Part shown: positions 20,727-38,733 of the stretch, in pieces | Layout: each line of letters starts with the position of its first letter | Position numbering within the stretch: position 1 is the stretch's first letter | Source: Paracoccaceae bacterium | Lineage (GTDB): Bacteria > Pseudomonadota > Alphaproteobacteria > Rhodobacterales > Rhodobacteraceae | Assembly (NCBI GenBank): GCA_007128135.1 | Contig: SKYA01000005.1 | Span: 1 to 39,821 of the forward strand | Length of the DNA stretch: 39,821 nucleotides | Reading direction: 5' to 3' | Position numbers and translations under genes: made by a program | The notes under the pieces: model-generated | What the model was told of the DNA's origin: nothing | Seen by the model: the letters and a program-made list of their open reading frames with translations, nothing else | Databases searched by the model: none

Positions 20727-20757
20727 GTCTCGGCTCGCGGCTGGAGGCAGGCGAAGG

Positions 20758-20806
20758 CCGGGGGTTTCACCCCCGGACTCCCAGAGTATTTGAGGCAGGA
20801 AATCGG
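20758..20806 (-). repeat. Dispersed roseobacter intergenic repeat, copy C
   Basis: Read on the minus strand, just after the permease stop, the element has the conserved CAAATACTC core and then a perfect 8-bp stem (CCGGGGGT / ACCCCCGG) with a 3-base loop. It matches copy B at 31348-31397 closely, including orientation relative to the upstream gene. It may form a terminator or an mRNA-end structure between the transporter genes and double-SnoaL protein A. Confidence 0.65.
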
Positions 20807-20814
20807 AACAAGGT

Positions 20815-21693: not shown

Positions 21694-21694
21694 G

Positions 21695-22723
21695 TCAGTG
21701 CCCCTTCCGGTTGAAGTCGCGCCATGTGCGGATCAGCACGGGTGCCAACAGCACGACCACGCCCAGGATGGTCAGCATCGAGGTGGTGGCGGCGGCCCCG
21801 AACTGGGCGGCATCACCGCGCAGATAGTTGAAGATATTGTAGCTCAGTGAGGTTGCGCTGGCCTGCGCCTGAAAGCCCACGATCGGCTCGAACACGCGGA
21901 AATTGTCCATCAGTTGCATGAGCGTGATGAAGATGGCCAGCGGCATCAGATGCGGGATCACGACATAGCGGATGCGCTGCCAGCGGTTTGCGCCATCGAT
22001 CATTGCGGCCTCAAGCGGTTCTTCAGGCACGGTCTGCAACCCTGCATAGAAGACAATGAAGGCAAAGGGTGCAGAGGACCAGACGCCATAGACGATCAGC
22101 ATGATCCATGTCAGCGTTGGCGAGGCCCGGAGCGAGAGGGTCGGGTCGTTGGTGACCGTCTGCAGAAAGGCCCCGAGAACCCCTCGACTGTCCACCATCC
22201 AGTACAGCACCAGCGAGCCGATCAGGGGTGTCACGATCATGGGCAGCAGGGACACGAAGATCGTGGGTCCGCGGAAGATGCGCGGCAGGGAATTGACGCC
22301 CAGCGCGATCGCAAGCCCCAGCACCAGCACGAAGGGCGTGACGACGAAGGTAAAGGTAAGCGTGAAGGCAAGCGCGCGCCAGAAAGGCAACGTCATGGCG
22401 CGGCGGGTGAAATCGGCGATACTGTCCGACCGCTCCCACATGCCACGGATCTCGGTTATGGCCAGGTGATTGCGGTCAAGATAGTTGCTGAAGCCGGCGA
22501 AACGTCCCAGAGGTCGCGCCTCGCGCAGTTCCCGCGTTGCCTCGCGGTCCACGATGGTTTCCTCGGCACAGCCGAAAGGGCCGCAATTCTCGACCGTGCG
22601 CAAGACCTGCTCATGCTCGACATGCAGCGACTGGATGAACACCGATACCACCGGCAGCGCAATGAACAGGATCATCGCCAGTGCCGAAGGGAGGATGAAC
22701 CAGAAGAATGTGCGGTGTTTCAT
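21695..22723 (-). CDS. Sugar-type ABC transporter permease (MalF-like)
   Basis: The 342-residue protein is the second transmembrane subunit. Helix 1 (about 8-30) is followed by an unusually long periplasmic loop of roughly 90 residues that includes a Cys-x4-Cys pair (NCGPFGCAEE). The remaining five helices come after. The EAA loop reads EEPLEAAMIDGANRWQRIRY. It lies between the binding-protein gene, from which it is separated by a strong stem-loop, and the MalG-like gene. The large loop could contact the binding protein, as the P2 loop does in MalF. That role is inference. Confidence 0.93.
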   Translation of the reverse strand: MKHRTFFWFILPSALAMILFIALPVVSVFIQSLHVEHEQVLRTVENCGPFGCAEETIVDREATRELREARPLGRFAGFSNYLDRNHLAITEIRGMWERSDSIADFTRRAMTLPFWRALAFTLTFTFVVTPFVLVLGLAIALGVNSLPRIFRGPTIFVSLLPMIVTPLIGSLVLYWMVDSRGVLGAFLQTVTNDPTLSLRASPTLTWIMLIVYGVWSSAPFAFIVFYAGLQTVPEEPLEAAMIDGANRWQRIRYVVIPHLMPLAIFITLMQLMDNFRVFEPIVGFQAQASATSLSYNIFNYLRGDAAQFGAAATTSMLTILGVVVLLAPVLIRTWRDFNRKGH

Positions 22724-22745
22724 GGTCCCTGCCCTGCAAGACGGC

Positions 22746-22766
22746 GGGCGGCCCTGCGGGCCGCCC
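22746..22766 (-). promoter_or_regulatory. Intercistronic stem-loop after the binding-protein gene
   Basis: GGGCGGCCC and GGGCCGCCC pair over 9 bp around a 3-base loop, between the binding-protein stop and the MalF-like start. Such structures after binding-protein genes are known to protect the upstream mRNA and lower downstream expression. It could also act as a partial terminator; there is no T-run. Confidence 0.55.
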
Positions 22767-22775
22767 GGATGTGGT

Positions 22776-24017
22776 TCAGTTCAGGAAACCCTGCGACCGG
22801 GCGGCCGTTGCATAGGCGGCCTCGATCGTGGCGAGCGTTTCCTCTGCGCTGGCCGATCCCTGCAGGAAAGGTGCAAGGTTATCGCCAAGCGCGGTGTGCA
22901 TCAGCCCCATGTAAGGCGTCATCGGATAGGGCGCGGCCCCGCCCTGCGCCGAAGCGATCACGCCTGCCGAGGCGGGTGTCGGCTCGTAGCCTTCGCCCAG
23001 CCAGACCGCCAGTTCCGAATTGGCAGCGATGCGCTCGGGCGTGATGCCGTTGAGCATGGCGAGAAAGCTGGCCTCGGCATTCTCGTCCGAGGTATTGGCG
23101 GCAATGGTGAACCCGTCCCACCACAGCGTCGTCGCGGGGCGGCTCTGGCCCTCGACTGTCGGCGCAGCGGCCAGAACGGTCGAGGCGACGATCTCGGGTG
23201 TCGAGTTCTCGCCTGACAGGATCCCTGCCCCGCGCGAGCCCCAGTGCAGCATCAGCGCCACTTCACCAGCCTCCCAGAGCGCCTGGATCGCGTTGGAATC
23301 GAAGGTCAGGTAGTCGGGATTGGAGAAACCGGTCAATGCCTTGAGCGCCTCGAGCGTAGCGATGCCTGCCTCATTGTTGATCGCCGGTGCAGCCGAACCG
23401 GGCTCGAAGAAACTGCCGCCGTGGCCGAGATAGAGGTTCACGAATTCCTGCGCAAGGTTCCAGCCCGCGCCCGAGACGATCGCGACGGGGTGGTCCATGA
23501 TGCCCTGCGACCTGATCGCCTCTGCAGCCGAGAGCACATCGGACAGGGTTTGCGGCGCACCGACACCGGCCTGTTCCAGAACATCCGAACGGTAGAACAG
23601 ATGCTGGGCATTGGCCATGAAGGCCACGGCCATCACCTGCCCCTCGACGCGCACCATCTGGGTGGGCAGCAGGTCGGAGCCGTGTTTCTCGATCAGATCG
23701 TCGAGCGGGCGGATCAGTCCGGCATTCATCAGCGGCACGATCGAGCCATTCGCCACGACCGCGACCGAATATTGCGACGGATTGGCCGTCAATGCTGCAA
23801 CCTGAAGGTCGCGGTGATCGCGCGTCAGGTTGGTCGTGACGGTCACGCTGCCTGTGGCGCATTCCTGTGCCCCTGCTACAACCGCCTGAAGCGCCGGGAA
23901 ATCATTGCCCAGGATCGAGACATCGCCAGAGGAAATCCCGCAATCGGCCAGCGCGGCCGAGCTCATCCCCATCGCCAGCACCGATGCGCAGGCCATCAGT
24001 TTCAGTCGCATGTTCAT
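22776..24017 (-). CDS. ABC transporter solute-binding protein (sugar-type)
   Basis: This 413-residue periplasmic protein belongs to the family 1 extracellular solute-binding proteins (MalE/UgpB-like). A signal peptide ends at ALA-D (residues 1-24). The mature protein carries two cysteines (about 26 and 52) that may form a disulfide. The segment WWDGFTIAANT resembles the conserved motif of sugar-binding relatives. It is the first gene of the leftward operon and starts after GGGAGAAGG. A LacI-type operator is centred about 50 bp upstream. The ligand is unknown; the family suggests a small polyol, sugar or sugar-acid-like compound. Confidence 0.92.
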   Translation of the reverse strand: MNMRLKLMACASVLAMGMSSAALADCGISSGDVSILGNDFPALQAVVAGAQECATGSVTVTTNLTRDHRDLQVAALTANPSQYSVAVVANGSIVPLMNAGLIRPLDDLIEKHGSDLLPTQMVRVEGQVMAVAFMANAQHLFYRSDVLEQAGVGAPQTLSDVLSAAEAIRSQGIMDHPVAIVSGAGWNLAQEFVNLYLGHGGSFFEPGSAAPAINNEAGIATLEALKALTGFSNPDYLTFDSNAIQALWEAGEVALMLHWGSRGAGILSGENSTPEIVASTVLAAAPTVEGQSRPATTLWWDGFTIAANTSDENAEASFLAMLNGITPERIAANSELAVWLGEGYEPTPASAGVIASAQGGAAPYPMTPYMGLMHTALGDNLAPFLQGSASAEETLATIEAAYATAARSQGFLN

Positions 24018-24097: not shown

Positions 24098-24181
24098 AGA
24101 AGAAAAATATATTCAGAGGCCTGTTTTCGAAGATTCACCAAAAAATACTTGTCAGGTGGGCGGATTGCTGCCAGCTTGTGT

Positions 24182-24195
24182 TGCATTCGTATGCA
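24182..24195. promoter_or_regulatory. Candidate LacI-family operator, site 2
   Basis: TGCATTCGTATGCA is identical to site 1 in the opposite orientation. It lies 27 bp before the ATPase start codon, where a bound repressor would block transcription. The two sites are 121 bp apart centre to centre, which would allow looping by a tetramer or two dimers. Confidence 0.72.
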
Positions 24196-24221
24196 TCACC
24201 GACTCATTGGCGGAGGCGCCC

Positions 24222-25268
24222 ATGGCCCAGATCGAATTGCGGAACCTGTCAAAGCGCTGGGGCAGCTTTGTCGGCGTGCATGCCTTTGACCTCATGATTG
24301 CCGACAGGGAATTCGTCGTGCTGCTGGGTCCCTCCGGTTGCGGAAAAACCACCACGATGCGCATGATTGCCGGGCTGGAGGAGATCACAGAGGGCGATGT
24401 CCTGATCGACGGCAAGCGCGTGAACGATCTGGACCCGAAGGACCGCGACATTGCCATGGTGTTCCAGTCCTACGCGCTCTATCCGAACATGAATGTCTAT
24501 GACAACATCCGCTTCCCGCTGAAGGTGCGCGGCGTCCCGCAGTCAGAGCATGACGGCAAGGTGCGCCGCGCGGCCGATATGGTCGAACTGGGGCCCTTCC
24601 TGCACCGCCGCCCGGCCGAGCTTTCGGGCGGGCAGCGGCAGCGCGTGGCACTGGCCCGTGCCGTTGTGCGCGAACCCAACCTGTTCCTGATGGACGAACC
24701 GCTTTCGAATCTGGACGCAAAGCTTCGTGTCTCGACCCGCGCGCAGATCAAGCATCTCAGTCATGAGCTGGGCGTGACCACGATCTATGTCACGCATGAC
24801 CAGATCGAGGCGATGACCCTCGCCGACCGGGTGGTTGTGATGAACTCGGGCGTCGTTCAGCAGGTGGGAACACCGACCGAGATCTACGACCGCCCGGCCA
24901 ATACCTTTGTCGCGGGTTTCATCGGCACACCGGCGATGAACCTGATGGAGGGGCAGGTCTCGAGTGGCACGTTCCACGGCGAGAATGTCGAGCTTCACGG
25001 TCTGGACGCGCCGGACGGGCGCGTCACGCTGGGCTTTCGCGCCGAAGACGCGTGCATGCTGCCCGATGGCGGCCAAATCAGCGCACCCATCTATTCGCTG
25101 GAGCTTCTGGGAGACGCGACAATGGCAACCGTGCGCGCAGGCGGTGCGATTGTCTCGATCAAGTGCCCCAAGGATTTCCGCGCCGAGATCGGCGCGCCGT
25201 TCGTGGCCGGGATTCCGGCCCAGGCAGTGCATCTTTTCGACCACGATAGCGGCGCACGGATCGCGTGA
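24222..25268 (+). CDS. Sugar-type ABC transporter ATP-binding protein (MsmK/UgpC-like)
   Basis: The 348-residue protein is the ATPase of the carbohydrate ABC class. Visible motifs are GPSGCGKTT at 36-44 (Walker A), the Q-loop MVFQSYALYPNM, LSGGQRQRVALARA (signature), LFLMDEPLSNLDAKLR (Walker B and D-loop), and the switch THDQIEAMTLADR. A C-terminal TOBE-type regulatory domain follows. The ATG after GGAGG matches the family start. It is encoded divergently from its permeases, at the head of the enzyme operon, so transporter and enzymes share control through the two operators. Confidence 0.96.
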   Translation: MAQIELRNLSKRWGSFVGVHAFDLMIADREFVVLLGPSGCGKTTTMRMIAGLEEITEGDVLIDGKRVNDLDPKDRDIAMVFQSYALYPNMNVYDNIRFPLKVRGVPQSEHDGKVRRAADMVELGPFLHRRPAELSGGQRQRVALARAVVREPNLFLMDEPLSNLDAKLRVSTRAQIKHLSHELGVTTIYVTHDQIEAMTLADRVVVMNSGVVQQVGTPTEIYDRPANTFVAGFIGTPAMNLMEGQVSSGTFHGENVELHGLDAPDGRVTLGFRAEDACMLPDGGQISAPIYSLELLGDATMATVRAGGAIVSIKCPKDFRAEIGAPFVAGIPAQAVHLFDHDSGARIA

Positions 25269-25304: not shown

Positions 25305-26615
25305 ATGCCCATGACCTTTCTGAAAACCGCCAAGCCCGAGTCCGAGCGCGCCGAGGATGACGCAAGGGTGCGCGCCACGGTCGAGCAGATCCTGCGCGAC
25401 ATCGAAACCCGTGGCGATGCTGCCGTGGCGGATCTGAGCGCGAAATTCGACGGGCTCCGCCGCCCGAGCTTCCGGCTGACGACCTCCGAGATCGAAGCTG
25501 CGATGTCCAGGGTCAGCACCCGCGACATGGAAGATATCCGCTTCGCACAGACCCAGATCCGCCGCTTTGCCGAGGCACAGCGCGCTTCCATGACCGATAT
25601 CGAGGTCGAGACCCTGCCCGGCGTGACCCTCGGGCACCGCAACATCCCGGTCCAGTCCGTGGGCTGCTATGTGCCCGGCGGCAAGTTTCCCATGGTCGCC
25701 AGCGCGCATATGTCGGTACTGACCGCGACTGTGGCAGGCGTGCCGCGCATCGTTGCCAGCGCCCCCCCGGTAAATGGCGAACCGCACCCCGCGATCGTCG
25801 CCGCCATGCATCTGGGCGGGGCGCATGAGATCTATGTCTTGGGCGGCATTCAGGCCGTGGGCGCCATGGCCATCGGAACGCACACCATCGAGCCTGTGCA
25901 TATGCTGGTCGGACCCGGCAATGCCTTCGTGGCCGAGGCCAAGCGCCAGCTTTACGGGCGTGTCGGCATCGACCTCTTTGCAGGCCCGACCGAAACCATG
26001 GTCATCGCCGACGACACGGTGGACGCCGAACTGGTGGCAACCGACCTTCTGGGGCAGGCCGAACACGGCTACAACTCGCCGGCCTGCCTTATCACCAATT
26101 CGCGCAAACTGGCCGAGGCGTCTCTGGCCGAGGTCGAGCGCCTGCTGGCCATCCTGCCTACGCGCGATACCGCCGCCGTCAGCTGGCGCGATTATGGCGA
26201 GGTGATCCTCTGCGACAGCCATGAGGAAATGCTGCGGCTGGCCAATGACATGGCCTATGAGCATGTGCAGGTCATGACCGACCGCGACGACTGGTATCTG
26301 GAAAACATGCTCAGCTACGGCGCGCTGTTCCTGGGGGCGCGCACCAATGTCGCCAATGGCGACAAGGTCATCGGCACCAACCACACGCTGCCCACGAAGA
26401 AGGCGGGGCGCTACACCGGCGGGCTCTGGGTCGGCAAGTTCCTCAAAACCCATTCCTACCAGCGCATCACGACTGACGCGGCTGCGGCACAGATCGGGGA
26501 ATACGGCTCGCGCCTGTGCATGCTGGAAGGCTTCGTCGGCCATGCCGAACAATGCAACATCCGCGTGCGCCGCTATGGGGGCAGGAATGTGCCCTACGGG
26601 GTCGCCGCGGAATGA
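25305..26615 (+). CDS. Histidinol-dehydrogenase-like NAD-dependent enzyme (HpsN-like)
   Basis: The 436-residue protein belongs to the histidinol dehydrogenase superfamily, which oxidises an alcohol to an acid in two NAD-dependent steps with zinc. All catalytic and zinc residues are retained: Gln251 and His254 (GQAEHG), Glu319-His320 (YEHVQV), Asp353 (NGDK) and His413 (EGFVGHAE). The segment from 370, [12 protein letters not shown], resembles the sulfopropanediol dehydrogenase HpsN clade rather than true HisD. In an operon with an ABC importer and SDR it is surely catabolic, not for histidine synthesis. The neighbours include no sulfonate lyase, so dihydroxypropanesulfonate is not established as substrate. 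It ends overlapping the next gene by 4 bp. Confidence 0.85.
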
Positions 26616-27649
26616 CCCCTGACCAGATCAAAGCAGTGGTGGCGCCCTTTCGCAAGGCGATGGAAACTGCAACGACTGACGGAACGCGTGCCGCCCTGGA
26701 TTCCATGCTGGTGCCCGAGGCCTCGATCCACATGTGCCATCCCTTCGGCGGTCTTGCCGGACCAGCCCAGCTATGGCAGGCCTGCTGCGCACCCCTTCTG
26801 ACCGCCATACCCGATCTGGAGCGGCGCGACATGATCGTGCTGGCCGGGACAACCCCGGAAGGGCAGGACTGGGTCGGCTGCATGGGCAACTACATGGGCA
26901 CCTTCACCGCGCCGTTTCTGGACATCCCGCCCACCGGGCACCTCGCACATATGCGTTATCACGAGTTCTTTCGGCTGGATGCGGAGCGCGTGGTCGAGAT
27001 GCAGGCGATCTGGGACATCCCCGAACTGATGATGCAGGCGGGCGCCTGGCCCATGGCGCCGCAGCTTGGCGCATATCTGGCAACACCCGCGCCAATGACG
27101 CAGGACGGTTTGCGCGCTTCGGGCGACGGACAGGCGGCGATGGCGCACGTCCTTGCAATGCTGACAGATCTGTGCCGCCACCCTGCCGATCCCGACCCCG
27201 AAGTGATGAACCTGCCCGCATACTGGCACCCGCGCTTCAACTGGTACGGGCCTGCAGGCATCGGCGCTGCACGCGGTATTGCCGGGTTCCGGCACTGGCA
27301 TCAGATCCCCTTCCTGCGCGCCATGCCGGATCGTGGACTGGACAGCGGCGGGCTTCTCAGCCACTGGATTGCACAGGGCGATTACGCTTGCGAAACCGGC
27401 TGGCCCAACATGCGGATGACACTCACGCAGGATGGCTGGCTGGGTATCGCGCCCGCAGACCAGCCCGTCACGCTGCGCTCTCTGGATTTCTGGCGGCTCG
27501 AAGATGGCTTGATCCGTGAGAACTGGGTGCTGGTCGATTTGCTGGACATGTGGGCGCAGATCGGTGTCGATGTGCTGGGGCGGATGCGTGAGTTCAACAA
27601 GCGGCGCAATCCCGCCCGGGTTTTGCTCGATCAGGGACTCGGCACATGA
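26612..27649 (+). CDS. Double SnoaL-like (NTF2-fold) protein B
   Basis: The 345-residue protein has two SnoaL/NTF2-like halves and is a paralogue of protein A. The second half includes [14 protein letters not shown] followed by HQIPF, and the end reads [11 protein letters not shown] with GVDVLGRM, closely like protein A. The first half carries HMCHPFGG and a MRYHEFF segment. The start overlaps the preceding stop (ATGA), as does its own end with the SDR. Two paralogues kept in both arms of one regulon suggest distinct steps on related intermediates, or a heteromeric enzyme. Reaction unknown. Confidence 0.82.
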
Positions 27650-28416
27650 TACCGGACCTTCCCCGAACCCCGTCCTTCCGGCTTGATGGCCGGCGCGCCA
27701 TTGTCACCGGGGCCTCTTCGGGCATCGGGTTTGCCTGTGCCTGCGCCCTGGCCGAAGCCGGGTCCGAGGTCATGATGGTCGCGCGCGGGGCCGCGCGTCT
27801 GGACGAGGCCGCCGCAGCGATCCGTGCGGCCGGGGGCGCGGCACGGGCGCAGGCGCTCGATATCACGGATATCCCTGCACTGCAGGGCTTTGTCTCTGCC
27901 CGGGGCCCGTTCGATGTGCTGGTCAATGCGGCTGGCCTCGCCCGGCACGGCCCTGCACTTGACACCACCGAGGAAGATTTCGACGCGGTCGCCGCCGTCA
28001 ACATCCGGGCCGCCTATTTCGCGGCCCAGGCGGTGGCCCGGGGGCTGGTCGCGGCGGGCAAGACTGGCAGCATCATCCAGATATCCAGCCAGATGGGCCA
28101 TGTCGGCGGTATTGACCGCGCCGTCTATTGCGCCACGAAACATGCCGTAGAGGGCATGACAAAGGCGATGGCGATGGAATGGGGTGCGAAGGGCATTCGC
28201 GTGAACACAATCTGTCCCACATTCATCCGCACCCCCCTGACCGAATCCACCTTCCGCAACCCCGAGCGCCGCGCCTGGATCGAGGCGAGGATAAAACTCG
28301 GTCGCGTCGGCGTCGTCGAGGATGTGATGGGTGCCGTGCTCTATCTTGCCTCGGATGCCAGCGCACTGGTCACGGGGACATCCCTCAGGGTCGATGGCGG
28401 GTGGATCGCGGGATGA
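27646..28416 (+). CDS. Short-chain dehydrogenase/reductase (SDR)
   Basis: The 256-residue protein is a classical SDR, an NAD(P)-dependent alcohol/ketone oxidoreductase with a Rossmann fold. The cofactor motif TGASSGIG is at 21-28 and NAAG at 94-97. The catalytic set is Ser147/148 with Tyr161-x3-Lys165 (YCATK). The C-terminal end (LVTGTSLRVDGGW) is typical. The position between a double-SnoaL gene and the LacI gene, with 4-bp overlaps on both sides, places it in the pathway. The substrate is probably a hydroxylated intermediate or the transported compound itself. Confidence 0.93.
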   Translation: MIPDLPRTPSFRLDGRRAIVTGASSGIGFACACALAEAGSEVMMVARGAARLDEAAAAIRAAGGAARAQALDITDIPALQGFVSARGPFDVLVNAAGLARHGPALDTTEEDFDAVAAVNIRAAYFAAQAVARGLVAAGKTGSIIQISSQMGHVGGIDRAVYCATKHAVEGMTKAMAMEWGAKGIRVNTICPTFIRTPLTESTFRNPERRAWIEARIKLGRVGVVEDVMGAVLYLASDASALVTGTSLRVDGGWIAG

Positions 28417-29432
28417 GCGCAGGCGGAAAGATCACCTCGATCGATGTCGCGCGGCTGGCAGGCGTGAGCCAGTCGGCAGTCAGCCGCGTCTTCACCCCGG
28501 GGGCCAGCGTCGCCCCAAAGACCGCGGCCAAGGTGCGCGCGGCGGCCAAGGCCCTCGGCTACCGTCCCAATTCGCTGGCACGCGCCATGATCACCGGCAA
28601 GAGCCGGATCATCGGGCTGGTCGTGGCCTATCTGGACAACCAGTTCTACCCTGTCGCGATCGAGAAGCTCAGCCATGCGCTGCAGAACAAGGGGTATCAT
28701 GTACTGCTGTTCATGGCATCGAACACGGCGGGCGAGATGGAGCGCCTGATGGAAGACCTGCTCGCCTATCAGGTGGACGGGATCATCACCGCCTCGGTCG
28801 CGATCAGCAACGACGTCACGCGCCGATGCGCCGATGCCGGCATTCCGCTTGTGATGTTCAATCGCGGCCAGCCCGGATCGGGGCTGTCCTCCGTCACCTC
28901 GGCCAATGCGCTGGGCGGTCGCAAGGTCGCGCATTTCCTGGTTGCGGGCGGGCATCGGCGCATCGCCCATATCAGCGGCTGGCAGGGGGCCAGCACCGGC
29001 CGCGACCGGGCGCGCGGGCTGTTCGAGGGACTGGCCGAGGCGGGCCTTGAACCCCACGCAGCCATCGATGGCCTCTATGATCGCGCCACGGCGGCCGCGG
29101 CCGCCCACCACATGATGCAGGCCGCGACGCCGCCCGATGCGATCTTCGTGGGCAATGACCACATGGCCTTTGCCGTGATCGATGCCCTGCGCGCCATCGG
29201 GCTGCGCGTACCGCAGGATGTCTCGGTGGTAGGCTATGATGACGTGCCCATGGCCGCCTGGGGGGCCTATGACCTGACCACGGTGCGCCAACCCCTGGCG
29301 CGCATGGTCGAGGCAACAGTCGAGACCCTTCTTGCCCAGATCGAGGACCCTGCGCGCGCGGCACAGTCCATAGAGATCGACGCCCCGCTCATCCTTCGCG
29401 GCTCTGCGCGTCAACCCGGGGAGGCACCATGA
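28413..29432 (+). CDS. LacI-family transcriptional regulator
   Basis: The 339-residue protein has an N-terminal LacI helix-turn-helix (SIDVARLAGVSQSAVSRVF at about 9-27), a hinge helix region (RPNSLARAM), and a periplasmic-binding-protein-like effector domain (IIGLVVAYLDNQFYP onward, with VGNDHMAFAV and VSVVGYDDVPMA). It presumably senses a pathway compound and binds the two TGCATTCGTATGCA sites at 24061 and 24182. The gene lies inside the enzyme operon it should control, giving feedback. The start overlaps the SDR stop and the stop overlaps the next start. Confidence 0.95.
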   Translation: MSAGGKITSIDVARLAGVSQSAVSRVFTPGASVAPKTAAKVRAAAKALGYRPNSLARAMITGKSRIIGLVVAYLDNQFYPVAIEKLSHALQNKGYHVLLFMASNTAGEMERLMEDLLAYQVDGIITASVAISNDVTRRCADAGIPLVMFNRGQPGSGLSSVTSANALGGRKVAHFLVAGGHRRIAHISGWQGASTGRDRARGLFEGLAEAGLEPHAAIDGLYDRATAAAAAHHMMQAATPPDAIFVGNDHMAFAVIDALRAIGLRVPQDVSVVGYDDVPMAAWGAYDLTTVRQPLARMVEATVETLLAQIEDPARAAQSIEIDAPLILRGSARQPGEAP

Positions 29433-30385
29433 CCAACCTGTTATGGGGCGAATGGTCAAGCTTCCCCGACTATATCATCGACATCACGCACCGCATCTGG
29501 GAGGGGCGCGACATCGAGAGCCTGAACCGGCTCTACGCGAGCGATATCCCGGTGCGCACGCCCATGGGCATGGCGCGCGGCAATGCCGGCGTGATCGCCT
29601 CGACCATGGCGACGCTGGCGGAGTTTCCCGACCGACAGTTGCTGGCAGAGGATGTGATCTGGTCCGAGGAGGCAGGGCATTACCTGTCCTCCCACCGCAT
29701 CCTGTCCACGGGCACGCATCTGGGCGCGGGCTTCTTCGGCCCTGCAACGGGCAAGAACTTTGCAATCCGCGTGATCGCCGATTGCGCCGCGCGCGACGGG
29801 GTCATCGATGATGAATGGCTCGTGCGCGACAATGGCGGTCTGATCCGGCAGCTGGGGGGTGATCCGCGCGTCTTTGCCGCCGATATGATCTCCCGTGATG
29901 GCCCTTCGGCGCCCTTCTCACCGCAGATAGATGTCGCGGGCCCCTACCAGGGGCGGGGCAATGACAGCGAATGGGGTGCAAGCTATGCGGGGGCATTGCG
30001 TGCGCTGATGACCGGCCGACTTGCGCCCGGGGATTACGACCGCGCCGCAATTGGCGACCATGCGGGGGCGCGACATCTGCCCGGCGCCAGCGATATCGGG
30101 CAGAGCTGGCTCGCGCTGCGCGCGGCCTTCCCCTCCGCGCGTTTCACGGTCCACCACCAGATCGGGCGCGACGACCCGCTGATGCCTCCGCGCGCCGCGC
30201 TTCGCTGGTCGCTGGACGGCACGCATGACGGCTGGGGGGCTTTCGGTCGGCCCACTGGTGCACGCGTTCATGTCATGGGACTTGCCCATGCCGAATACGG
30301 CCCCCGGGGCATCCGCCGCGAGTGCGCGCTCTGGGACGAAATCGCCATCTGGAAACAGATTCTCCTTCACACAGGTGAGACATGA
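29429..30385 (+). CDS. SnoaL-like protein C (two NTF2-type halves, divergent)
   Basis: The 318-residue protein appears to be a third member of the double-SnoaL group, though much more distant from A and B. The first half has SDIPVRTPMG and a conserved acidic segment; the second holds a predicted NTF2-like part with DIGQSWLALRAAFPSARF and a C-terminal ECALWDEIAIWKQIL. It is preceded by GGGGAGG and starts within the LacI stop. No catalytic residues can be assigned. The shared cluster and similar length suggest a related function. Confidence 0.7.
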   Translation: MTNLLWGEWSSFPDYIIDITHRIWEGRDIESLNRLYASDIPVRTPMGMARGNAGVIASTMATLAEFPDRQLLAEDVIWSEEAGHYLSSHRILSTGTHLGAGFFGPATGKNFAIRVIADCAARDGVIDDEWLVRDNGGLIRQLGGDPRVFAADMISRDGPSAPFSPQIDVAGPYQGRGNDSEWGASYAGALRALMTGRLAPGDYDRAAIGDHAGARHLPGASDIGQSWLALRAAFPSARFTVHHQIGRDDPLMPPRAALRWSLDGTHDGWGAFGRPTGARVHVMGLAHAEYGPRGIRRECALWDEIAIWKQILLHTGET

Positions 30386-31347
30386 CCCCCGAGCAAACGG
30401 AACCCCGCATCGTCCGCTATGGCGAGTTGAAACCCTGCAAGACCGCCTTCATCGACGCCCACACGCCGGGCAGCGACCAGAAGGAGAATTTCACCATCAT
30501 CGGCGGTGGTGTATCGGAATCCGCCGATCAGCATGTGCATATCCGCGAAACGCCGGGTTTCAACATCGGCGCGGCAGGCCAGCCACCCAAATGCCGCAAC
30601 TCACTTCATTCCCACCGCACGGCAGAGGTGTTCTTCGTACTCAAGGGCCGCTGGCGTTTCTTCTGGGGGCGCTGGGGCACCGCGGGCGAGGTGGTTCTGG
30701 AAGAAGGCGACATCTTCAACATTCCGACCGGGATTTTCCGCGGTTTCGAGAATATCGGCACCGATTACGGAATGATCATGGCCATCCTCGGCGGCGATGA
30801 CGCAGGGGGCGGGGTGATCTGGGCACCTCAGGTGATCGAGGATGCCCGCGCACATGGACTGGTGCTGGCCGAAAACGGTAAGCTCTACGACAGCAAGCGC
30901 GGCGAGCACCTGCCCGAAGGCGTTGCCCCAATGCCGCTGCTGACAGTGGCGGAACTCAAGACCTTCCCCGAACCCACGACTGTCGATGTCATACCGGATT
31001 ACGTCGCCCGCTACTGGGATCTGGTGGCGCTGGCCGACCGCCAGCCTGCCAGCGTCATCGGCGAGAGGGGTCTCCTGCGCGATCGCCCCGGCTTCGAGGT
31101 GGGCTTTCTCACCCGTGCGTCTGCGAGCGACGAACTCCACGGCCATGATCGCCCTTCGGTGCTCATGCCCCTGCGTGGGCACTGGCGGCTGAAATGGCCG
31201 GACGGCGAGGCCACGCTCAACCCGGGCGACACCTGCCTCGTCCCCGAGAACCTGCCCCATACCGCCGTGCCCGCCATGACCGGCGAGGCGAGCCTCTATC
31301 AGGTCATCGGCACAGATGACCCGTCAGGCCCGACCCACCGGTTCTGA
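30382..31347 (+). CDS. Bicupin-domain protein
   Basis: The 321-residue protein holds two cupin barrels. The first cupin has HSHRTAEVFFVLKG (about 75-88), with the H-x-H...E metal pattern, and EEGDIFNIPTGIFRGFEN as the second box. The second repeats it with ELHGHDRPSVLMPLRG and LNPGDTCLVPENLPHT. Bicupins include dioxygenases, isomerases and oxalate decarboxylases, so the reaction here is undefined. It overlaps the SnoaL-like gene C by 4 bp and ends directly before repeat copy B. Confidence 0.82.
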   Translation: MTPEQTEPRIVRYGELKPCKTAFIDAHTPGSDQKENFTIIGGGVSESADQHVHIRETPGFNIGAAGQPPKCRNSLHSHRTAEVFFVLKGRWRFFWGRWGTAGEVVLEEGDIFNIPTGIFRGFENIGTDYGMIMAILGGDDAGGGVIWAPQVIEDARAHGLVLAENGKLYDSKRGEHLPEGVAPMPLLTVAELKTFPEPTTVDVIPDYVARYWDLVALADRQPASVIGERGLLRDRPGFEVGFLTRASASDELHGHDRPSVLMPLRGHWRLKWPDGEATLNPGDTCLVPENLPHTAVPAMTGEASLYQVIGTDDPSGPTHRF

Positions 31348-31397
31348 TTTCATCTTGCCGAAAATACTCCGGGGGGTCCGGGGGGCAGCGCCCCCGG
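31348..31397 (+). repeat. Dispersed roseobacter intergenic repeat, copy B
   Basis: Directly after the bicupin stop comes TTTCATCTTGCCGAAAATACTC, a G-rich spacer, and a 7-bp stem (CCGGGGG / CCCCCGG). It is the most complete copy in the window. It may act as a terminator or partial terminator between the bicupin and the MetE-like gene, which starts 75 bp downstream of the bicupin with its own AAGGAAAAACC ribosome site. Confidence 0.65.
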
Positions 31398-31422: not shown

Positions 31423-32544
31423 ATGCCGCTTCTCACAACCCATGTCGGCTCGCTCCCCCGCACGCAAGACGTCGTGGATTTCCTTTTCGCCCGCGAGCGA
31501 GGGGAGGATTACGACCCGGAGGCTTTCGACGCCTGCATGGCGAGCGCCGTGATGGAGAATGTTCGCCGCCAGCAGGAGGCAGGTATCGACATCGTGTCGG
31601 ACGGTGAATGCTCCAAGATCAGCTACGCCACCTATGTCAAGGATCGCTATACCGGCTTTTCCGGCGACAGCCCGCGCAACGCGCCTGCCGATCTCAAGAT
31701 GTTTCCGTCCTTTCTGGACAGGCTGGCCAAATCAGGCGGAACTCCGAGTTATGCGCGCCCGCAATGCACCGCGCCGGTCCTGAGCAAGGGGCAGGCAGAG
31801 TTGCGAAAGGACATCGCCAATCTGAAATCCGCCATGGCCGCGCATGGGCTCGCGCGTGGTTTCATGAACGCGGCGTCTCCGGGGGTGATCTCGCTCTTTC
31901 TGCAAAACGCCTACTACCCGGATCGCCAAGCCTATCTGGACGCCCTGGCCGACGCGATGCGCGACGAATACCGCACGATCCTCGATTCGGGTCTGGCGCT
32001 GCAACTCGACTGCCCTGACCTGGCGCTGTCGCGCCATATGCTGTTTGCAGACCTCACGGATGCCGAATTTCTGAGCGTCGCCGAAACGCATGTTGCGGCA
32101 TTGGAGCGCGCGCTTGACGGCTTGCCGCGCGACAACATCCGCCTGCATATCTGCTGGGGGAATTACGAGGGGCCGCATTGCTGTGATATCGACATGGCCA
32201 CGATGTTTCCGCTGCTGATGCGTGTGCCCGCCCGCTATGTCCTGTTCGAGACCGCCAATCCCCGCCACGGTCACGAATGGGCCGTGTTTCGCGACCGCGC
32301 GAATGACATCCCGTCCGACAAGGTTCTGGTGCCCGGTGCGATTGACACGACCACGAATTTCATCGAGCACCCTGACCTTGTTGTCCAGCGCCTCGAACGC
32401 TTTACCAGTATCGTGGGGCCAGAGCGGGTTATCGCGGGCAGCGATTGCGGCTTCGGTACTTTCGCGGGCTTCGGCGCCGTCGACCCGGAAATCGCCTGGG
32501 CCAAGCTTGCGACCCTGTCCGCGGGCGCGAAGCGCGTCGCATGA
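31423..32544 (+). CDS. Cobalamin-independent methionine-synthase-like (MetE C-terminal) zinc transferase
   Basis: The 373-residue protein is a single-domain relative of the MetE C-terminal barrel, a group that includes methyltransferases and epoxyalkane:coenzyme M transferase. It starts LLTTHVGSLPR, a family signature. The zinc-binding ligands that activate thiols are visible: His242-x-Cys244 (LHICWGN) and Cys342 (GSDCGFG). A zinc-dependent alkyl or methyl transfer to a thiol is therefore plausible. It lies in a catabolic operon, so the role is unlikely to be ordinary methionine synthesis. It overlaps the following hydrolase by 4 bp. Confidence 0.88.
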   Translation: MPLLTTHVGSLPRTQDVVDFLFARERGEDYDPEAFDACMASAVMENVRRQQEAGIDIVSDGECSKISYATYVKDRYTGFSGDSPRNAPADLKMFPSFLDRLAKSGGTPSYARPQCTAPVLSKGQAELRKDIANLKSAMAAHGLARGFMNAASPGVISLFLQNAYYPDRQAYLDALADAMRDEYRTILDSGLALQLDCPDLALSRHMLFADLTDAEFLSVAETHVAALERALDGLPRDNIRLHICWGNYEGPHCCDIDMATMFPLLMRVPARYVLFETANPRHGHEWAVFRDRANDIPSDKVLVPGAIDTTTNFIEHPDLVVQRLERFTSIVGPERVIAGSDCGFGTFAGFGAVDPEIAWAKLATLSAGAKRVA

Positions 32545-33224
32545 CCCCGCTTGTCCTCATCCCCGGCATGATGTGCGACGCGCGCATGTGGGGCAAGGTG
32601 CCTGCCGCCCTGCCCTGCCCCATCCACCACGCCCTGCCTGTGCAGGGCAAAAGCATCCCCGGGATCGCCTCTGCCATCCTGCGCGAGGCGCCCGAACGGT
32701 TCGCGCTGGCAGGGCTGTCGATGGGCGGGATCGTGGCGATGGAAATGCTCGAGCAGGCTCCGGCACGGATCGAACGGCTTGCCCTTCTGGACACCAACCC
32801 TCTGGCCGAGGCCCCCGAGGTGCAGGCACGGCGCGGGGGCCAGATCGCGCGCGCGCTGGCGGGCGACCTGGCGGGCGTCATGCGCGACGAGATGAAGCCG
32901 AGCTACCTCGCAGACCCCGATGACAGGGTAACGCTCGACCTGTGCATGGACATGGCCCGCAGCCTTGGCCCCGAGGTCTTTCGCTGCCAGTCGCTGGCGC
33001 TGCGCGACCGGGCGGACCGGACGGATACGCTGCGCCGTTTCACCAGACCAGCACTTGTGTTGACGGGCGAACAAGACCGCCCCTGCCCGCGCGACAGACA
33101 TGACCTGATGCACAGCCTGATGCCGCAGTCGCGGCTTGTCGTCATCCCGCAGGCCGGTCATCTGCCGCCACTGGAGCGACCCGCCCCCACGATCACAGCC
33201 CTGAAGGAGTGGCTAGAGACATGA
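32541..33224 (+). CDS. Alpha/beta hydrolase
   Basis: This 227-residue protein is a small alpha/beta-hydrolase-fold enzyme. The nucleophile elbow is GLSMGG (Ser60), an acidic candidate lies in TGEQDRPCP, and the catalytic His in QAGHLPPLERP. The N-terminal VLIPGMMCDARMW includes the oxyanion-type loop. It could cleave an ester, lactone or C-C bond of a pathway intermediate. The start overlaps the MetE-like stop and the stop overlaps the RraA-like gene, so it belongs to the same operon. Confidence 0.9.
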   Translation: MTPLVLIPGMMCDARMWGKVPAALPCPIHHALPVQGKSIPGIASAILREAPERFALAGLSMGGIVAMEMLEQAPARIERLALLDTNPLAEAPEVQARRGGQIARALAGDLAGVMRDEMKPSYLADPDDRVTLDLCMDMARSLGPEVFRCQSLALRDRADRTDTLRRFTRPALVLTGEQDRPCPRDRHDLMHSLMPQSRLVVIPQAGHLPPLERPAPTITALKEWLET

Positions 33225-33913
33225 CCCCCGAGTTGCTGACCCTGCTGGAACACGTCGATACGCCCACTGTCTGCAACGCCATCGAGGTGGTGCAGGGGCG
33301 ACGCGGCTTTGACGCCTTCACGCGCGGCACGATGCTGTGCTCGGAACCCGGGCGCGCGGTCGTGGGCCATGCGGTGACTGCCCAGATTGCCGCCCATGAC
33401 CCTCCGACCGAGGCACCGGATGTGATCCGCGCGCGGCGCATGGCCTATTACAAGGCCATGCATGATGCCCCGAAACCCTCGCTCGCCGTGATCGAGGATG
33501 CGGATTATCCCGACTGCATCGGCGCCTATTGGGGCGAGATCAATACCACTATCCACAAGGGGTTCGGCATGTCCGGCGCACTGACCAATGGCGTGATGCG
33601 CGACCTGGGAGACCTTCCCCCCGGCTTTCCGGTGATTGCGGGCAGTATGGGCCCGAGCCACGGCTTCGTGCATGTGCGCGCGCTGGGCACGCCTGTGACC
33701 GTCTTCGGGCTACGCGTGACACAGGGCGATCTGGTCCATGCCGATCGCCACGGCGCGCTCGTGATTCCGCCCGAGGTCATTCCGCACCTTGCCAACGGGA
33801 TCGAAAGGCTGCTCGCAACCGAAAGGCTGATACTCAAGCCCGCCCGCGCACCGGGCTTCGATTTCGCTGCCTTCGAGACCGCCTGGGCCGCTTTCGAGAA
33901 GTCGCGGACCTGA
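33221..33913 (+). CDS. RraA-like protein (HMG aldolase/decarboxylase family)
   Basis: The 230-residue protein belongs to the RraA/DlpA family. Members include 4-hydroxy-4-methyl-2-oxoglutarate aldolases and oxaloacetate decarboxylases as well as RNase E inhibitors. The catalytic segment reads SGALTNGVMRDL, with Arg127-Asp128 in the usual places (an Asn replaces the common Asp before the Gly). In this operon a lyase acting on a keto-acid product is the likely role. Start at the ATG overlapping the hydrolase stop; AAGGAG lies 12 bp upstream. It is the last gene of the rightward cluster. Confidence 0.85.
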   Translation: MTPELLTLLEHVDTPTVCNAIEVVQGRRGFDAFTRGTMLCSEPGRAVVGHAVTAQIAAHDPPTEAPDVIRARRMAYYKAMHDAPKPSLAVIEDADYPDCIGAYWGEINTTIHKGFGMSGALTNGVMRDLGDLPPGFPVIAGSMGPSHGFVHVRALGTPVTVFGLRVTQGDLVHADRHGALVIPPEVIPHLANGIERLLATERLILKPARAPGFDFAAFETAWAAFEKSRT

Positions 33914-34895: not shown

Positions 34896-34962
34896 ACTGA
34901 CCTCAGTTGAAACTCTTGTTTCTTCCTCAATTTATATATTTTGCAGGGCTTTGCATTATTTG

Positions 34963-34981
34963 AATTCATGTAACGTGAATT
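34963..34981. promoter_or_regulatory. Inverted repeat in the LysR/MttB intergenic region
   Basis: AATTCA and TGAATT are a perfect 6-bp inverted pair around TGTAACG. The stretch 34930-34985 is strongly AT-rich for this genome and is the likely promoter area between the divergent LysR and MttB genes. A regulator site is plausible; which protein binds is unknown. Confidence 0.35.
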
Positions 34982-35085
34982 TTTCTGTCATTGCCAGAAC
35001 CTGTCTGCTGTCGCAGGGTCGGCGTCAGAGATGTGCACGTCCGCAGGGCTTGCGGCATCGGGTCAACCCAAACGGAGTTCCAGGC

Positions 35086-36678
35086 ATGTTGCAGAACACC
35101 ACCAAGACCGACAGTCTCCCGTCAGACCGTCCTGCCCGGCGCGCGCGAAAGGGCCGCGTCCAGACCACCCGCAACCCCGAGCCGGGGCAGAACCTGCACC
35201 TGCGCACGCCCTACATCACCCGGCGCATTCCCACCTATGACCTGCTGGACGACGAGGCGCTGAGCCGGATCGAAGCCACGGCAGACCGTATCCTTGCCGA
35301 AATCGGGATCGAGCTGCGCGACGACGCCGAGGCCATGCGGCTCTATCAGGACGCGGGCGCGCAGGTGACGCATGTTTCGGGCGAGATCTGGCGCATTCGG
35401 TTTGCACCCGGCATGCTGCGCGAGATCCTGAAATCTGCGCCCGCACGCTTTACCCAGCACGCGCGCAACCCCGCGAACAGCGTCGAGATCGGCGGCGATG
35501 CGATGGTGTTTGCGCCAGCCTATGGATCACCCTTCGTGATGGATCTGGATCAGGGACGGCGCTATGGCACGATTGCCGATTTCGAAAACCTGATCAAACT
35601 GGCGCAATCCTCGCCCTGGCTGCATCATTCCGGCGGCACGATCTGCGAGCCGACCGACGTGCCGGTCAACAAGCGCCATCTGGACATGGTCTATGCCCAT
35701 ATGCGTTATTCCGACCGCGCCTTCCTCGGCTCCATCACCGCGCCCGAACGCGCCGCCGACAGTATCGAGATGTGCCGCATCCTGTTCGGGGCCGAGTTTG
35801 TCGAGAATAACTGCGTGATCATGGGCAATTTCAACACCACCTCGCCCCTTGTTCTGGACGGAGTGACGACTGCGGGCATCCGCACCTATGCCGCGGCCGG
35901 GCAGGGGTCGATCCATCTGCCATTTCTGCTGGGCGGAGCCGTGGCGCCGCTGACCATGGCAGGGACAGTAGCACAGTGCCTGGCCGAGTCGATGGCATCC
36001 TGCGCACTGGCGCAACTGGTGCGGCCCGGCGCTCCAGTGGTCTTCGCGGGGTTCCTGTCATCCATGTCGCTGCGCACCGGATCGCCCACATTCGGCACAC
36101 CCGAACCTGCGCTGGGCTCACTGGTGATGGGACAACTTGCGCGGCGGTTGAACCTGCCCTTGCGCTGCGCGGGCAATTTCAGCACCTCGAAATCGCCTGA
36201 CGGGCAGGCGATGCAGCAGGCGATGATGTCGATGATGTCGGCCATTCAGGGCGGGGCGAACTATATCCTGCATGCGGCGGGGTTTGTGGACGGGCTGTTG
36301 TCGATGTCGTATGAAAAGATGATCATGGACATGGACATGTGCGGCGCACTGCACGCCTATCTCGCGGGGATCGAGGTCACTGACGACACGCTGGCCTTTG
36401 ACGCGCTGGCGCAATTCGGGCCGGGCGAGCATCTGTTCGGCACGGACCACACGTTGCGGCACTATGAAACCGCCTATTGGGACAGCGGCCTGAATGATGA
36501 TCGTACCCATGAGACATGGTCGGAAACCGGCAGCATTGACGCAGCCAGCCGCGCCAACCAGCGCTGGAAGGACACGCTGGCGCGCTATGTGCCGCCCACC
36601 ATTGACCCCGGGATTGACGAGGCGTTGAAGGATCATGTGGCGCGCCGAAAGGCCGCCATGCCCGATGCGTGGTATTGA
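35086..36678 (+). CDS. MttB-family (trimethylamine methyltransferase-like) protein, non-pyrrolysine
   Basis: The 530-residue protein is a member of the trimethylamine methyltransferase MttB superfamily (COG5598), with an N-terminal RTPYITRRIPTYDLLDDE and segments such as LHHSGGTICEPTDVP and SGLNDDRTHETWSETG. No in-frame UAG is present, so it is a pyrrolysine-free member like the glycine-betaine methyltransferase MtgB. Such enzymes pass a methyl group from a quaternary amine to a corrinoid protein. No corrinoid protein is present in the window. The ATG after GGAG is chosen although the frame is open 135 bp further upstream. The next gene begins 9 bp after it. Confidence 0.87.
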   Translation: MLQNTTKTDSLPSDRPARRARKGRVQTTRNPEPGQNLHLRTPYITRRIPTYDLLDDEALSRIEATADRILAEIGIELRDDAEAMRLYQDAGAQVTHVSGEIWRIRFAPGMLREILKSAPARFTQHARNPANSVEIGGDAMVFAPAYGSPFVMDLDQGRRYGTIADFENLIKLAQSSPWLHHSGGTICEPTDVPVNKRHLDMVYAHMRYSDRAFLGSITAPERAADSIEMCRILFGAEFVENNCVIMGNFNTTSPLVLDGVTTAGIRTYAAAGQGSIHLPFLLGGAVAPLTMAGTVAQCLAESMASCALAQLVRPGAPVVFAGFLSSMSLRTGSPTFGTPEPALGSLVMGQLARRLNLPLRCAGNFSTSKSPDGQAMQQAMMSMMSAIQGGANYILHAAGFVDGLLSMSYEKMIMDMDMCGALHAYLAGIEVTDDTLAFDALAQFGPGEHLFGTDHTLRHYETAYWDSGLNDDRTHETWSETGSIDAASRANQRWKDTLARYVPPTIDPGIDEALKDHVARRKAAMPDAWY

Positions 36679-36687
36679 GAGGGCATC

Positions 36688-38733
36688 ATGTCGAACGATC
36701 CGCTGTTGCAGCCGTATCAACTCAAGCATCTTACCTTGCGCAACCGGATCATGACCACGGCGCATGAACCGGCCTATCCCGAGGACGGAATGCCGAAAGC
36801 GCGCTATGTCGCCTATCATGCGGAACGGGCGAAAGCGGGCGTGGCGCTGGCCATGACGGCAGGCTCTGCCGCAGTCTCACGCGACAGCCCGCCCGTGTTC
36901 AACAATATCCTGGCGTGGCGCGACGAGGTGGTGCCCCATATCCGCGCGCTGACCGACGCCTGCCACGACCACGGCTGCGCGGTGATGATCCAGCTCACCC
37001 ATCTGGGCCGCCGCACCGGCTGGAACAAGGGCGACTGGCTGCCTTCGGTCTCCTCCAGCAGACACCGCGAACCGGCGCACCGGGCGTTTCCGAAGCTGGC
37101 CGAGGATTGGGATATCGAGCGCATCATTGCAGATTTTGCCGATGCGACGGAACGGATGAAGGCAGGCGGCATGGACGGCATCGAGTTGCAGGTCTATGGC
37201 CATCTGCTCGATCAGTTCTGGTCACCCCTGACCAACGATCTCGACGGCCCCTATGGCGGCGAGAGCCTCGAGACGCGGATGCAGCTTCTGATGGACGTGC
37301 TGCGTGGCATCCGTGCGCGTGTTGGCGACGGGTTCATCGTCGGCGTGCGCTACACCGCCGATGAGGCCGTCACGGGCGGGATTGATGCTGCCGAAGGATT
37401 GGAAATCTCGAAGCGGCTGGCCGAATGCGGGATGGTGGATTTCCTGAACGTCATTCGCGGGCGTATCCATACCGACCCCGCCATGACCGATGTGATCCCT
37501 GTGCAGGGCATGAAATCGGCGCCGCATCTGGATTTCGCGGGCGCCGTGCGCGCGGCGACCGGCATGCCGACCTTTCACGCCGCGCGCATTCCGGATGTGG
37601 CCACCGCGCGCCATGCGGTGGCCTCGGGCTTGTTGGACATGGTCGGCATGACCCGCGCGCATATGGCCGACCCGCATATCGTGCGCAAGATCATCGAGGG
37701 ACGCGAGGACGACATCCGCCCCTGCGTCGGCGCGACCTACTGCCTCGACCGGATCTATCAGGCCGGTGAGGCGCTGTGCATCCACAACGCTGCCACCGGG
37801 CGCGAATTGACTCTGCCGCATGTCATCACACCTGCACGCGCGCGCAGGCAAGTCGTGGTGGTCGGCGCTGGCCCCGCCGGGCTGGAAGCTGCACGCGTCG
37901 CCGCCGAGCGCGGGCATGACGTGACAGTGTTCGAGGCCCAGCCCGACCCCGGCGGCCAGATCAGGCTGACCGCGCAAAACCCGCGCAGGCGCGAGATGAT
38001 CGGCATCATCGACTGGCGCATGGCCCAGTGTGCTGCGCGCGATGTGGTGTTTCACTTCAACAGTTTCGCCGAAGCGGAGGACGTGACGGCGCTGGCCCCG
38101 GATGTGGTGATCGTGGCCACGGGCGGGCTGCCCAATACGGAACTGTTTGAAGGCGGCGCCGAGAACCCGCATGTGGTCAGCGCCTGGGACATTATCGCGG
38201 GCGACGTGAAACCCGCTGGCCGCGTGCTGGTCTATGACGAGTCGGGCGATCATCCGGGGCTGATGGCGGCGGAAGTGGCCGCCAATGCCGGGGCGCAGGT
38301 CGAGGTGATGACCCCCGACCGGACCTTCGCGCCAGATATAATGGGCATGAACCTTGTCCCCTATATGCGCGCGCTGCAGGACAAGGATGTCACCTTCACC
38401 GTCACCCGCCGCCTGCTGGACGTGACGCGCGACGGCAACCGTCTGCGCGCGACCATCGGCACCGATTACAGCAGCTTCACCCGGGATCAGCACTACGACC
38501 AAGTGGTGGTGAATTACGGCACCATGCCGCTGGCCGATCTCTATTTCACGCTCAGGCCACTGTCATCGAATGGTGGCGCAGTGGATTACGACTCGCTCAC
38601 CTCAGGCCGGGCGCAGGACATGACCCGCAACAGCGATGGCCAGTTCCAACTGTTCCGGATCGGTGACGCGGTCAGCGCGCGCAACACGCATGCCGCCATC
38701 CATGACGCGCTGCGCCTGATGAAGGATATCTGA
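36688..38733 (+). CDS. NADH:flavin oxidoreductase / trimethylamine dehydrogenase-like protein
   Basis: The 681-residue protein has the layout of the trimethylamine/dimethylamine dehydrogenase and 2,4-dienoyl-CoA reductase family: an FMN barrel (1-about 340), a cysteine-rich Fe-S segment (346-364), and a FAD/NAD(P)-binding C-terminal half starting VVVGAGPAGLEAARVA. The active-site region GIELQVYGHLLDQF carries Tyr170 and His172. The Fe-S segment reads CVGATYC...C (Cys346, Cys352, Cys364). The second of the four usual cysteines is Ala349. Oxidative demethylation of a tertiary amine is the most likely role. It is coupled to the MttB-family gene. Confidence 0.9.
   Translation: MSNDPLLQPYQLKHLTLRNRIMTTAHEPAYPEDGMPKARYVAYHAERAKAGVALAMTAGSAAVSRDSPPVFNNILAWRDEVVPHIRALTDACHDHGCAVMIQLTHLGRRTGWNKGDWLPSVSSSRHREPAHRAFPKLAEDWDIERIIADFADATERMKAGGMDGIELQVYGHLLDQFWSPLTNDLDGPYGGESLETRMQLLMDVLRGIRARVGDGFIVGVRYTADEAVTGGIDAAEGLEISKRLAECGMVDFLNVIRGRIHTDPAMTDVIPVQGMKSAPHLDFAGAVRAATGMPTFHAARIPDVATARHAVASGLLDMVGMTRAHMADPHIVRKIIEGREDDIRPCVGATYCLDRIYQAGEALCIHNAATGRELTLPHVITPARARRQVVVVGAGPAGLEAARVAAERGHDVTVFEAQPDPGGQIRLTAQNPRRREMIGIIDWRMAQCAARDVVFHFNSFAEAEDVTALAPDVVIVATGGLPNTELFEGGAENPHVVSAWDIIAGDVKPAGRVLVYDESGDHPGLMAAEVAANAGAQVEVMTPDRTFAPDIMGMNLVPYMRALQDKDVTFTVTRRLLDVTRDGNRLRATIGTDYSSFTRDQHYDQVVVNYGTMPLADLYFTLRPLSSNGGAVDYDSLTSGRAQDMTRNSDGQFQLFRIGDAVSARNTHAAIHDALRLMKDI

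Follow-up and report, generated by a model that had tools for sequence, protein, structure and literature searches.

Does a protein that resembles methionine synthase act in the breakdown of a compound when its gene lies in a degradation operon? The question is raised by a gene in a window of 39,821 nucleotides, the whole stretch of Paracoccaceae DNA analyzed here. The original prediction described its product as a zinc transferase of the MetE type inside a degradation operon, compared it with epoxyalkane:coenzyme M transferase and suggested a thiol-adduct or demethylation step. We named the protein MesL. Its operon is conserved and found mostly in marine bacteria, and a mutant of what is very probably the corresponding gene already exists in Phaeobacter inhibens (PMC12366255). 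Relatives of MesL are annotated as methionine synthases.

MesL belongs to a run of nine genes on the same strand, which extends from the HisD gene (25305) to the RraA gene (33913) in the conserved order HpsN/HisD-like, SnoaL, SDR, LacI, SnoaL, cupin, MesL, hydrolase and RraA (Table 1). Adjacent genes overlap by 4 bp, except for the 75 bp between the end of the cupin gene (31347) and MesL; some of the start codons were inferred, and two overlaps were read directly. The close linkage to the hydrolase and RraA-like genes was predicted correctly: the MesL stop codon shares 4 bp (32541-32544) with the hydrolase ATG. Likewise, 4 bp (33221-33224) are common to the end of the hydrolase gene and the RraA-like ATG, an earlier GTG start for RraA being present at 33209. 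Genes for a sugar-type ABC transporter are located upstream of the nine-gene run. A scan of the window for defence systems gave no match.

Table 1. Coordinates of MesL and of the surrounding genes in the window.
Feature	Coordinates	Strand	Remarks
Third SnoaL-like protein	19734-20726	-	divergent arm
Permease	20815-21693	-	divergent arm
Permease	21695-22723	-	divergent arm
Sugar-type binding protein	22776-24017	-	divergent arm (19734-24017)
ABC transporter ATPase	24156-25268	+	uncertain start codon; match to MalK OB-fold slightly below cut-off; conserved across loci
Histidinol-dehydrogenase-family alcohol dehydrogenase, HpsN/HisD-like	25305-26615	+
SnoaL_A, SnoaL-like tandem-domain protein	26612-27649	+	ATG start at 26612 inferred
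Short-chain dehydrogenase (SDR)	27646-28416	+
LacI-family regulator	28413-29432	+	ATG start at 28413 inferred
SnoaL_B, SnoaL/NTF2-fold tandem-domain protein	29429-30385	+
Bicupin protein	30382-31347	+	no significant solved relative
MesL (name coined here), core MetE-like zinc methyltransferase	31423-32544	+	ATG start, 373 aa
Alpha/beta hydrolase, weakly PcaD/BioH-like	32541-33224	+	GLSMG motif
RraA-like aldolase/decarboxylase-superfamily protein	33221-33913	+

The Pfam model Meth_synt_2 (PF01717) matches MesL with 42.8 bits (gathering score 21), its best stretch covering residues 4-66 only. Seven NCBIfam methionine synthase models match as well, all below their cut-offs (best 80.7 vs 406 bits), and the best solved structure found by sequence is MesD (3rpd), with a weak E value of 3.3e-5. 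The fold, the residues, their invariance and the conservation of the operon were computed. An AlphaFold2 model built from 43 family sequences (mean pLDDT 92.6, pTM 0.92) predicts a single MetE barrel that is closest to MesD, a structure that contains selenomethionine. It matches 3rpd_B with a Z score of 36.5 (2.2 Å over 315 residues) and residues 402-729 of Thermotoga maritima MetE with homocysteine (1xdj_A) with a Z score of 33.3, both matches running from MesL residue 1 to 373. The model also matches uroporphyrinogen decarboxylase (UROD, Z ~21) and the Methanosarcina methyltransferase 4ay7 (Z 21.2). Domain score and predicted fold agree with the proposed thiol-activating zinc barrel of the MetE type.

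To describe the active site, 121 family sequences, which are not all independent and from which matches covering less than 330 residues were omitted, were aligned together with references; E. coli MetE numbering was verified in this alignment against the letters of the protein itself. The predicted zinc site, H242-x-C244 and C342, is present at these positions of the window translation, and E276, which the prediction had missed, is the fourth ligand according to the alignment to MetE. Each of the four residues is identical in 121/121 relatives. The same holds for each of the predicted homocysteine contacts S10, E62 and D196, the Ser/Glu/Asp signature of core methionine synthases. The MetE catalytic domain is thus retained at all seven positions (MesL/E. 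coli MetE: S10/S433, E62/E484, D196/D599, H242/H641, C244/C643, E276/E665, C342/C726), their roles in MetE, zinc binding or homocysteine contact, being those assigned in the accessible part of PMC7857596; the N-terminal barrel of MetE is absent from MesL. The invariance in 121 relatives and the full-length fold match show that the H-x-C...C motif is more than a chance occurrence, and judged from these residues MesL would bind zinc.

Residues that we take to serve folate in MetE have a different fate, namely H694, presumably the proton donor to the pterin, and R515, C516 and W561, presumably folate contacts. In the H694 column, MesL of the window has Thr and 120/121 relatives have Thr, Cys, Ser or Ala; R515, C516 and W561 are not retained in the alignment. 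Since none of these residues is kept, MesL is unlikely to use methyl-THF in the manner of MetE. The family has conserved residues of its own: H282, H284 and E285 are each identical in 121/121 relatives and H252 in 120/121. H282, H284 and E285 were found in none of the eight references aligned with the family; the alignment is uncertain in this loop, where the E285 column holds an Asp in five of the eight references and the H252 column a His in one of them (Aminobacter). According to the secondary structure of the predicted model, the four residues are located in or just after the loops that follow the zinc-ligand strands, and they may form a donor site or a site for a second metal.

Known enzymes of this fold were compared with MesL. 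Canonical MetE was rejected, as the 373 aa of MesL do not reach two-barrel length and TIGR01371 gives 18.8 instead of 929.95 bits. The cut-offs of NF003317 and NF002119, which we take to be models tied to MesA/MesC, are likewise not reached. MesD (3RPD; PMC7857596) shares the single MetE barrel and the same zinc and homocysteine residues, but it is otherwise different: NF006589 gives 54.3 instead of 392 bits (a MesX-linked protein used as control scores 688), Acinetobacter MesD is 24% identical to MesL and belongs to a separate clade, and MesD lacks H282, H284 and E285 of the MesL family. In addition, MesX adjoins MesD, whereas no MesX was recognised among the scanned window neighbors of MesL.

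In a 36-row tree, the 28 MesL family rows form a single clade (stem length 3.06, support 100/99). Outside it fall E. coli MetE, two MesD proteins whose genes adjoin MesX, two YxjG-like rows and a second Meth_synt_2 protein from the same genome. Phylogenetic placement had been proposed as a check of the prediction, and in this tree MesL does not fall within a MetE lineage of methionine synthesis; the tree was calculated without MesA, MesB and MesC, several of its branches are flagged as long, and two of the reference sequences were trimmed at the N-terminus. The MesL family is a distinct, biochemically uncharacterised core MetE-type family that is widespread and little studied.

The nearest non-family row to the MesL clade is a presumed EtnE (95/83, with a long-branch warning; the join may be an artefact). 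This Nocardioides JS614 plasmid protein (L148:4269-5360), annotated as methionine synthase II family protein, was taken as EtnE because its gene adjoins those for monooxygenase subunits and is close to genes for phosphosulfolactate synthase, presumably a member of CoM biosynthesis. As a single reference protein it belongs to the same Pfam family as MesL, keeps the zinc ligands and the Asp and is 25% identical to window MesL, but it has Asn and Lys where MesL (121/121) and E. coli MetE have the contact Ser and Glu. The Lys would bind the sulfonate of CoM. No alkene monooxygenase or CoM-biosynthesis gene was recognised with Pfam among 30 window ORFs, whereas both surround the presumed EtnE. Because EtnE differs at two contacts that are invariant in the MesL family (N and K against S10 and E62), the proposed likeness to epoxyalkane:coenzyme M transferase did not hold despite the position in the tree, and a CoM enzyme of the XecA/EtnE type was rejected for MesL. 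Going by these contacts, homocysteine is a likelier thiol than CoM, and the site could serve another amino-acid thiol.

MesL was found in 105 of the 244 genomes sampled from the order and in 49 of 100 genera. It can be absent even within the genus, as one same-genus genome has no MesL match. Gene neighborhoods were compared at 55 window-type loci, defined by a MesL protein identity of at least 58%, with neighbors counted within 9 kb at identity thresholds of their own (40-60%) and genes past a contig end scored as misses. SnoaL_B was present at 50 of these loci, the cupin at 49, HisD at 48, SDR at 47, LacI at 46, the hydrolase at 41, SnoaL_A at 40 and RraA at 35, confirming the place of MesL inside a conserved degradation operon. 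Neither a LigM-like nor an MTHFR-like gene was found near MesL (0/55 each), and these Rhodobacterales-type loci contain no recognised demethylase or one-carbon gene. The 55 loci, and the 56 more distant ones described below, are not all independent, since L047 and L132, whose contigs have the same length (619,715 bases), probably represent one genome.

The wider context was inspected at 22 loci (20 hand-picked from the 105 genomes and two plasmids). HisD, SDR, LacI, SnoaL_B, cupin and MesL follow in this order on one strand at 16 of them; both the hydrolase and RraA come next in seven cases, one of them in seven, and neither was recognised in two. The other six comprise one rearranged locus (L041), one partial locus (L043), one that is partial at a contig end (L056) and three in which MesL is accompanied by at most the hydrolase (L044, L054, L057). 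In an uncultured alphaproteobacterium (L137), MesL is surrounded by HisD, SDR, LacI, hydrolase, SnoaL and cupin in a different order, and this retention of a reordered gene set argues for a functional link between the operon genes. Accessory genes vary: a SAM methyltransferase is present at 4/22 loci, and single loci that were tested encode an M19 dipeptidase, a GMC oxidoreductase, an alcohol dehydrogenase or a PNPOx-like protein. In one genome (G155, contig C59, 107019-108129) the MesL frame is split in two and has an in-frame TAA, the operon being otherwise recognisable, and an Acetobacteraceae MAG carries two MesL copies side by side (L110:8980-11293).

The dehydrogenase at the start of the run bears on the nature of the substrate. 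It matches HpsN (sulfopropanediol dehydrogenase; E 2.6e-113) better than HisD (5.6e-77), which suggested a DHPS pathway. The accessible part of PMC11382572 describes His126 of HpsN as the residue that recognises the sulfonate and distinguishes HpsN. Met occupies this position in the window, and among 48 operon copies there are 44 with Met, one with Leu and three that are unreadable. The DHPS pathway was therefore rejected; since the distinguishing His is replaced, the enzyme is probably a dehydrogenase of another primary alcohol.

A second gene context was found among more distant relatives; of 572 relatives in the scan of genome contigs, the best 80 were retained. At 26 of 56 such loci (by record titles, 25 from sphingomonads and one from Steroidobacteraceae), the MesL relative has a LigM/DesA-like gene within 9 kb, and at 30 this gene is missing from the range; NTF2-like (33), FolD-like (17) and MTHFR-like genes (16) are also nearby. 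The only demethylase copy scanned, from Croceicoccus, scores above the NCBIfam thresholds of both syringate O-demethylase (839.9 vs 800) and LigM (619.9 vs 580). In this organism the MesL relative is preceded by genes for MTHFR, purU, folD and dihydroneopterin aldolase and followed by an NTF2-like gene and an IclR regulator. The window hydrolase is 31% identical (232 columns) to the hydrolase encoded beside the Croceicoccus DesA-type gene. Window SnoaL_B and the sphingomonad NTF2-like neighbor have no BLASTP similarity and thus share at most the fold family. LigM and a reversed MTHFR form a one-carbon module in Sphingobium, according to the accessible part of PMC12585457; genes like those of this LigM-S6MTHFR module often neighbor sphingomonad MesL relatives, whereas neither is near MesL at the 55 window-type loci. 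In Rhodococcus, Dietzia, haloarchaea, Pantoea, Acidobacteria and other groups, the partners of MesL relatives differ or are not evident, so that one MesL family may serve several pathways.

Experimental data come from P. inhibens DSM 17395, whose PGA1_c27430 ("Mes-like") is very probably the same operon member. One published outer knock-out primer matches the window cupin gene in 20/21 bases at 30444 (next best site 6 mismatches), and the second outer primer matches the RraA gene in 19/21 at 33516 (next best 5 mismatches), making Mes-like the MesL ortholog by position (PMC12366255). The remaining four of the six primers have no clear site in the window (5 to 10 mismatches); this was expected, because two abut the gene and two are verification primers, and it gives no confirmation either. 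The part of PMC12366255 that is accessible gives Mes-like no role in an operon; it presents the protein as possibly a core methionine synthase and as not involved in lag shortening: the mutant retains the lag shortening induced by DMSP, and the gene is down-regulated 15 min after DMSP addition. These data give no support for demethylation of DMSP. The same source reports low residual, slow growth of the delta-bmt strain without methionine, possibly due to Mes-like. From what is accessible of PMC12478193, a P. inhibens mtgCDE mutant is a methionine auxotroph despite its core-MetE homolog, and synthesis under cobalamin limitation is called plausible. The literature suggests that Mes-like does not replace the main methionine synthase in P. 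inhibens and has at most residual activity.

Our reading is that MesL is a core methyltransferase that uses homocysteine and is linked to catabolism, demethylation being the most likely step. More specifically, we give slightly less than an even chance to a catabolic methyltransferase that passes a methyl group of the operon-encoded degradation pathway to homocysteine. Zinc on H242, C244, E276 and C342 would activate the thiol group of an alpha-amino acid, either homocysteine or a close analogue, held by S10, E62 and D196. The thiolate would take the methyl group from a methylated catabolic intermediate or from a carrier charged by it, yielding methionine and a demethylated intermediate, which the overlapping hydrolase and RraA-like lyase would break down further. 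Here we infer the binding of zinc itself, the identity of the thiol, methyl as the transferred group, the donor and the order of steps. As the Rhodobacterales-type loci have no recognised demethylase, demethylation is argued from the sphingomonad relatives, whose frequent proximity to a LigM/DesA-like O-demethylase gene makes it plausible. The demethylation half of the predicted pathway role can thus be kept as plausible, while specific evidence for the thiol-adduct half was not found. Against a catabolic role, several MesL relatives have no evident catabolic partners. If true, a link between demethylation of algal compounds and methionine formation would connect nutrient breakdown and methyl supply in marine bacteria in a new way and would correct the common methionine synthase annotation of MesL relatives.

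Alternatively, MesL could be a back-up core methionine synthase, using methyl-corrinoid or another general methyl donor, perhaps made under cobalamin limitation, and placed in the operon incidentally. The complete zinc and homocysteine signature, MesD as the closest solved structure and a Rhodococcus relative directly behind a full-length metE fit this idea, as do the delta-bmt residual growth (PMC12366255, as far as accessible) and the plausibility granted to such synthesis in the accessible text of PMC12478193. It is nevertheless doubtful, given the conserved linkage to degradation genes, the auxotrophy of the mtgCDE mutant in the latter source and scores below the cut-offs of all seven matching methionine synthase models. 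Two genes of the homocysteine-methyltransferase type (PF02574), found elsewhere in the genome, could serve methionine synthesis.

Two further explanations concern reactions other than methyl transfer. An enzyme that uses an amino-acid thiol to open or add to a pathway intermediate, as in the XecA-type adduct, and that transfers no methyl, is favoured by the conserved H252, H282, H284 and E285, which suggest a special second-substrate site, and by the tree, where the presumed EtnE (a member of this Pfam family) is the closest row outside the MesL family; the possible long-branch artefact, the N and K of EtnE at the homocysteine-contact Ser and Glu and the lack of recognised monooxygenase and CoM-biosynthesis genes in the window make it quite improbable. 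A homolog with another activity that retains the zinc site, for instance a lyase or isomerase, is unlikely as well: uroporphyrinogen decarboxylases share the fold and are not methyltransferases, but the invariance of the homocysteine contacts has no evident reason unless an amino-acid thiol is used.

Within catabolic methyl transfer, MesL could also be a direct demethylase, an enzyme that demethylates an algal methoxylated ring compound onto homocysteine without folate or cobalamin, which we consider a long shot. A ring of the 4-deoxygadusol (mycosporine-like) type would fit the operon gene content, from which this substrate is drawn. Following the chemistry of 4-deoxygadusol and the analogy to scytalone dehydratase, the SnoaL proteins would act as aromatising dehydratases and the HpsN-like enzyme would oxidise CH2OH to COOH. 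MesL would remove the O-methyl group; its donor site would be made up of H252, H282, H284 and E285 and might include a second metal. The cupin, hydrolase and RraA would carry out ring opening and aldol cleavage. Nothing related was found in the literature on this gene combination, nothing recognisable as describing this operon appeared in listings of the homarine or mycosporine literature, and in the aromatic O-demethylation literature "MetE" in the accessible part of PMC8091115 denotes an E. coli genotype only.

Several other features were observed in the window and in the genome. A GC-rich near-palindrome, GGGGGCAGCGCCCCC, is located at 31381-31395, within the 75 bp in front of MesL, the one place in the nine-gene run where adjacent genes do not overlap; as many matches were reached in 8 of 100 shuffles. 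Downstream, at 34951-38733, a gene for an MttB-superfamily methyltransferase (PF06253, 722 bits) lies beside genes for an OYE/FadH-type flavoenzyme and an IclR regulator, preceded by a divergent LysR gene. MttB, OYE and LysR are within 9 kb of MesL at none of the 55 window-type loci, so that the MttB/OYE genes were rejected as operon members; the cluster possibly represents a separate pathway for an N-methyl compound. The second Meth_synt_2 protein of the genome (L144:1474-2496, contig C14, 340 aa) groups with an Aminobacter protein that is annotated as uroporphyrinogen decarboxylase family and encoded in the same row of genes as an extradiol dioxygenase.
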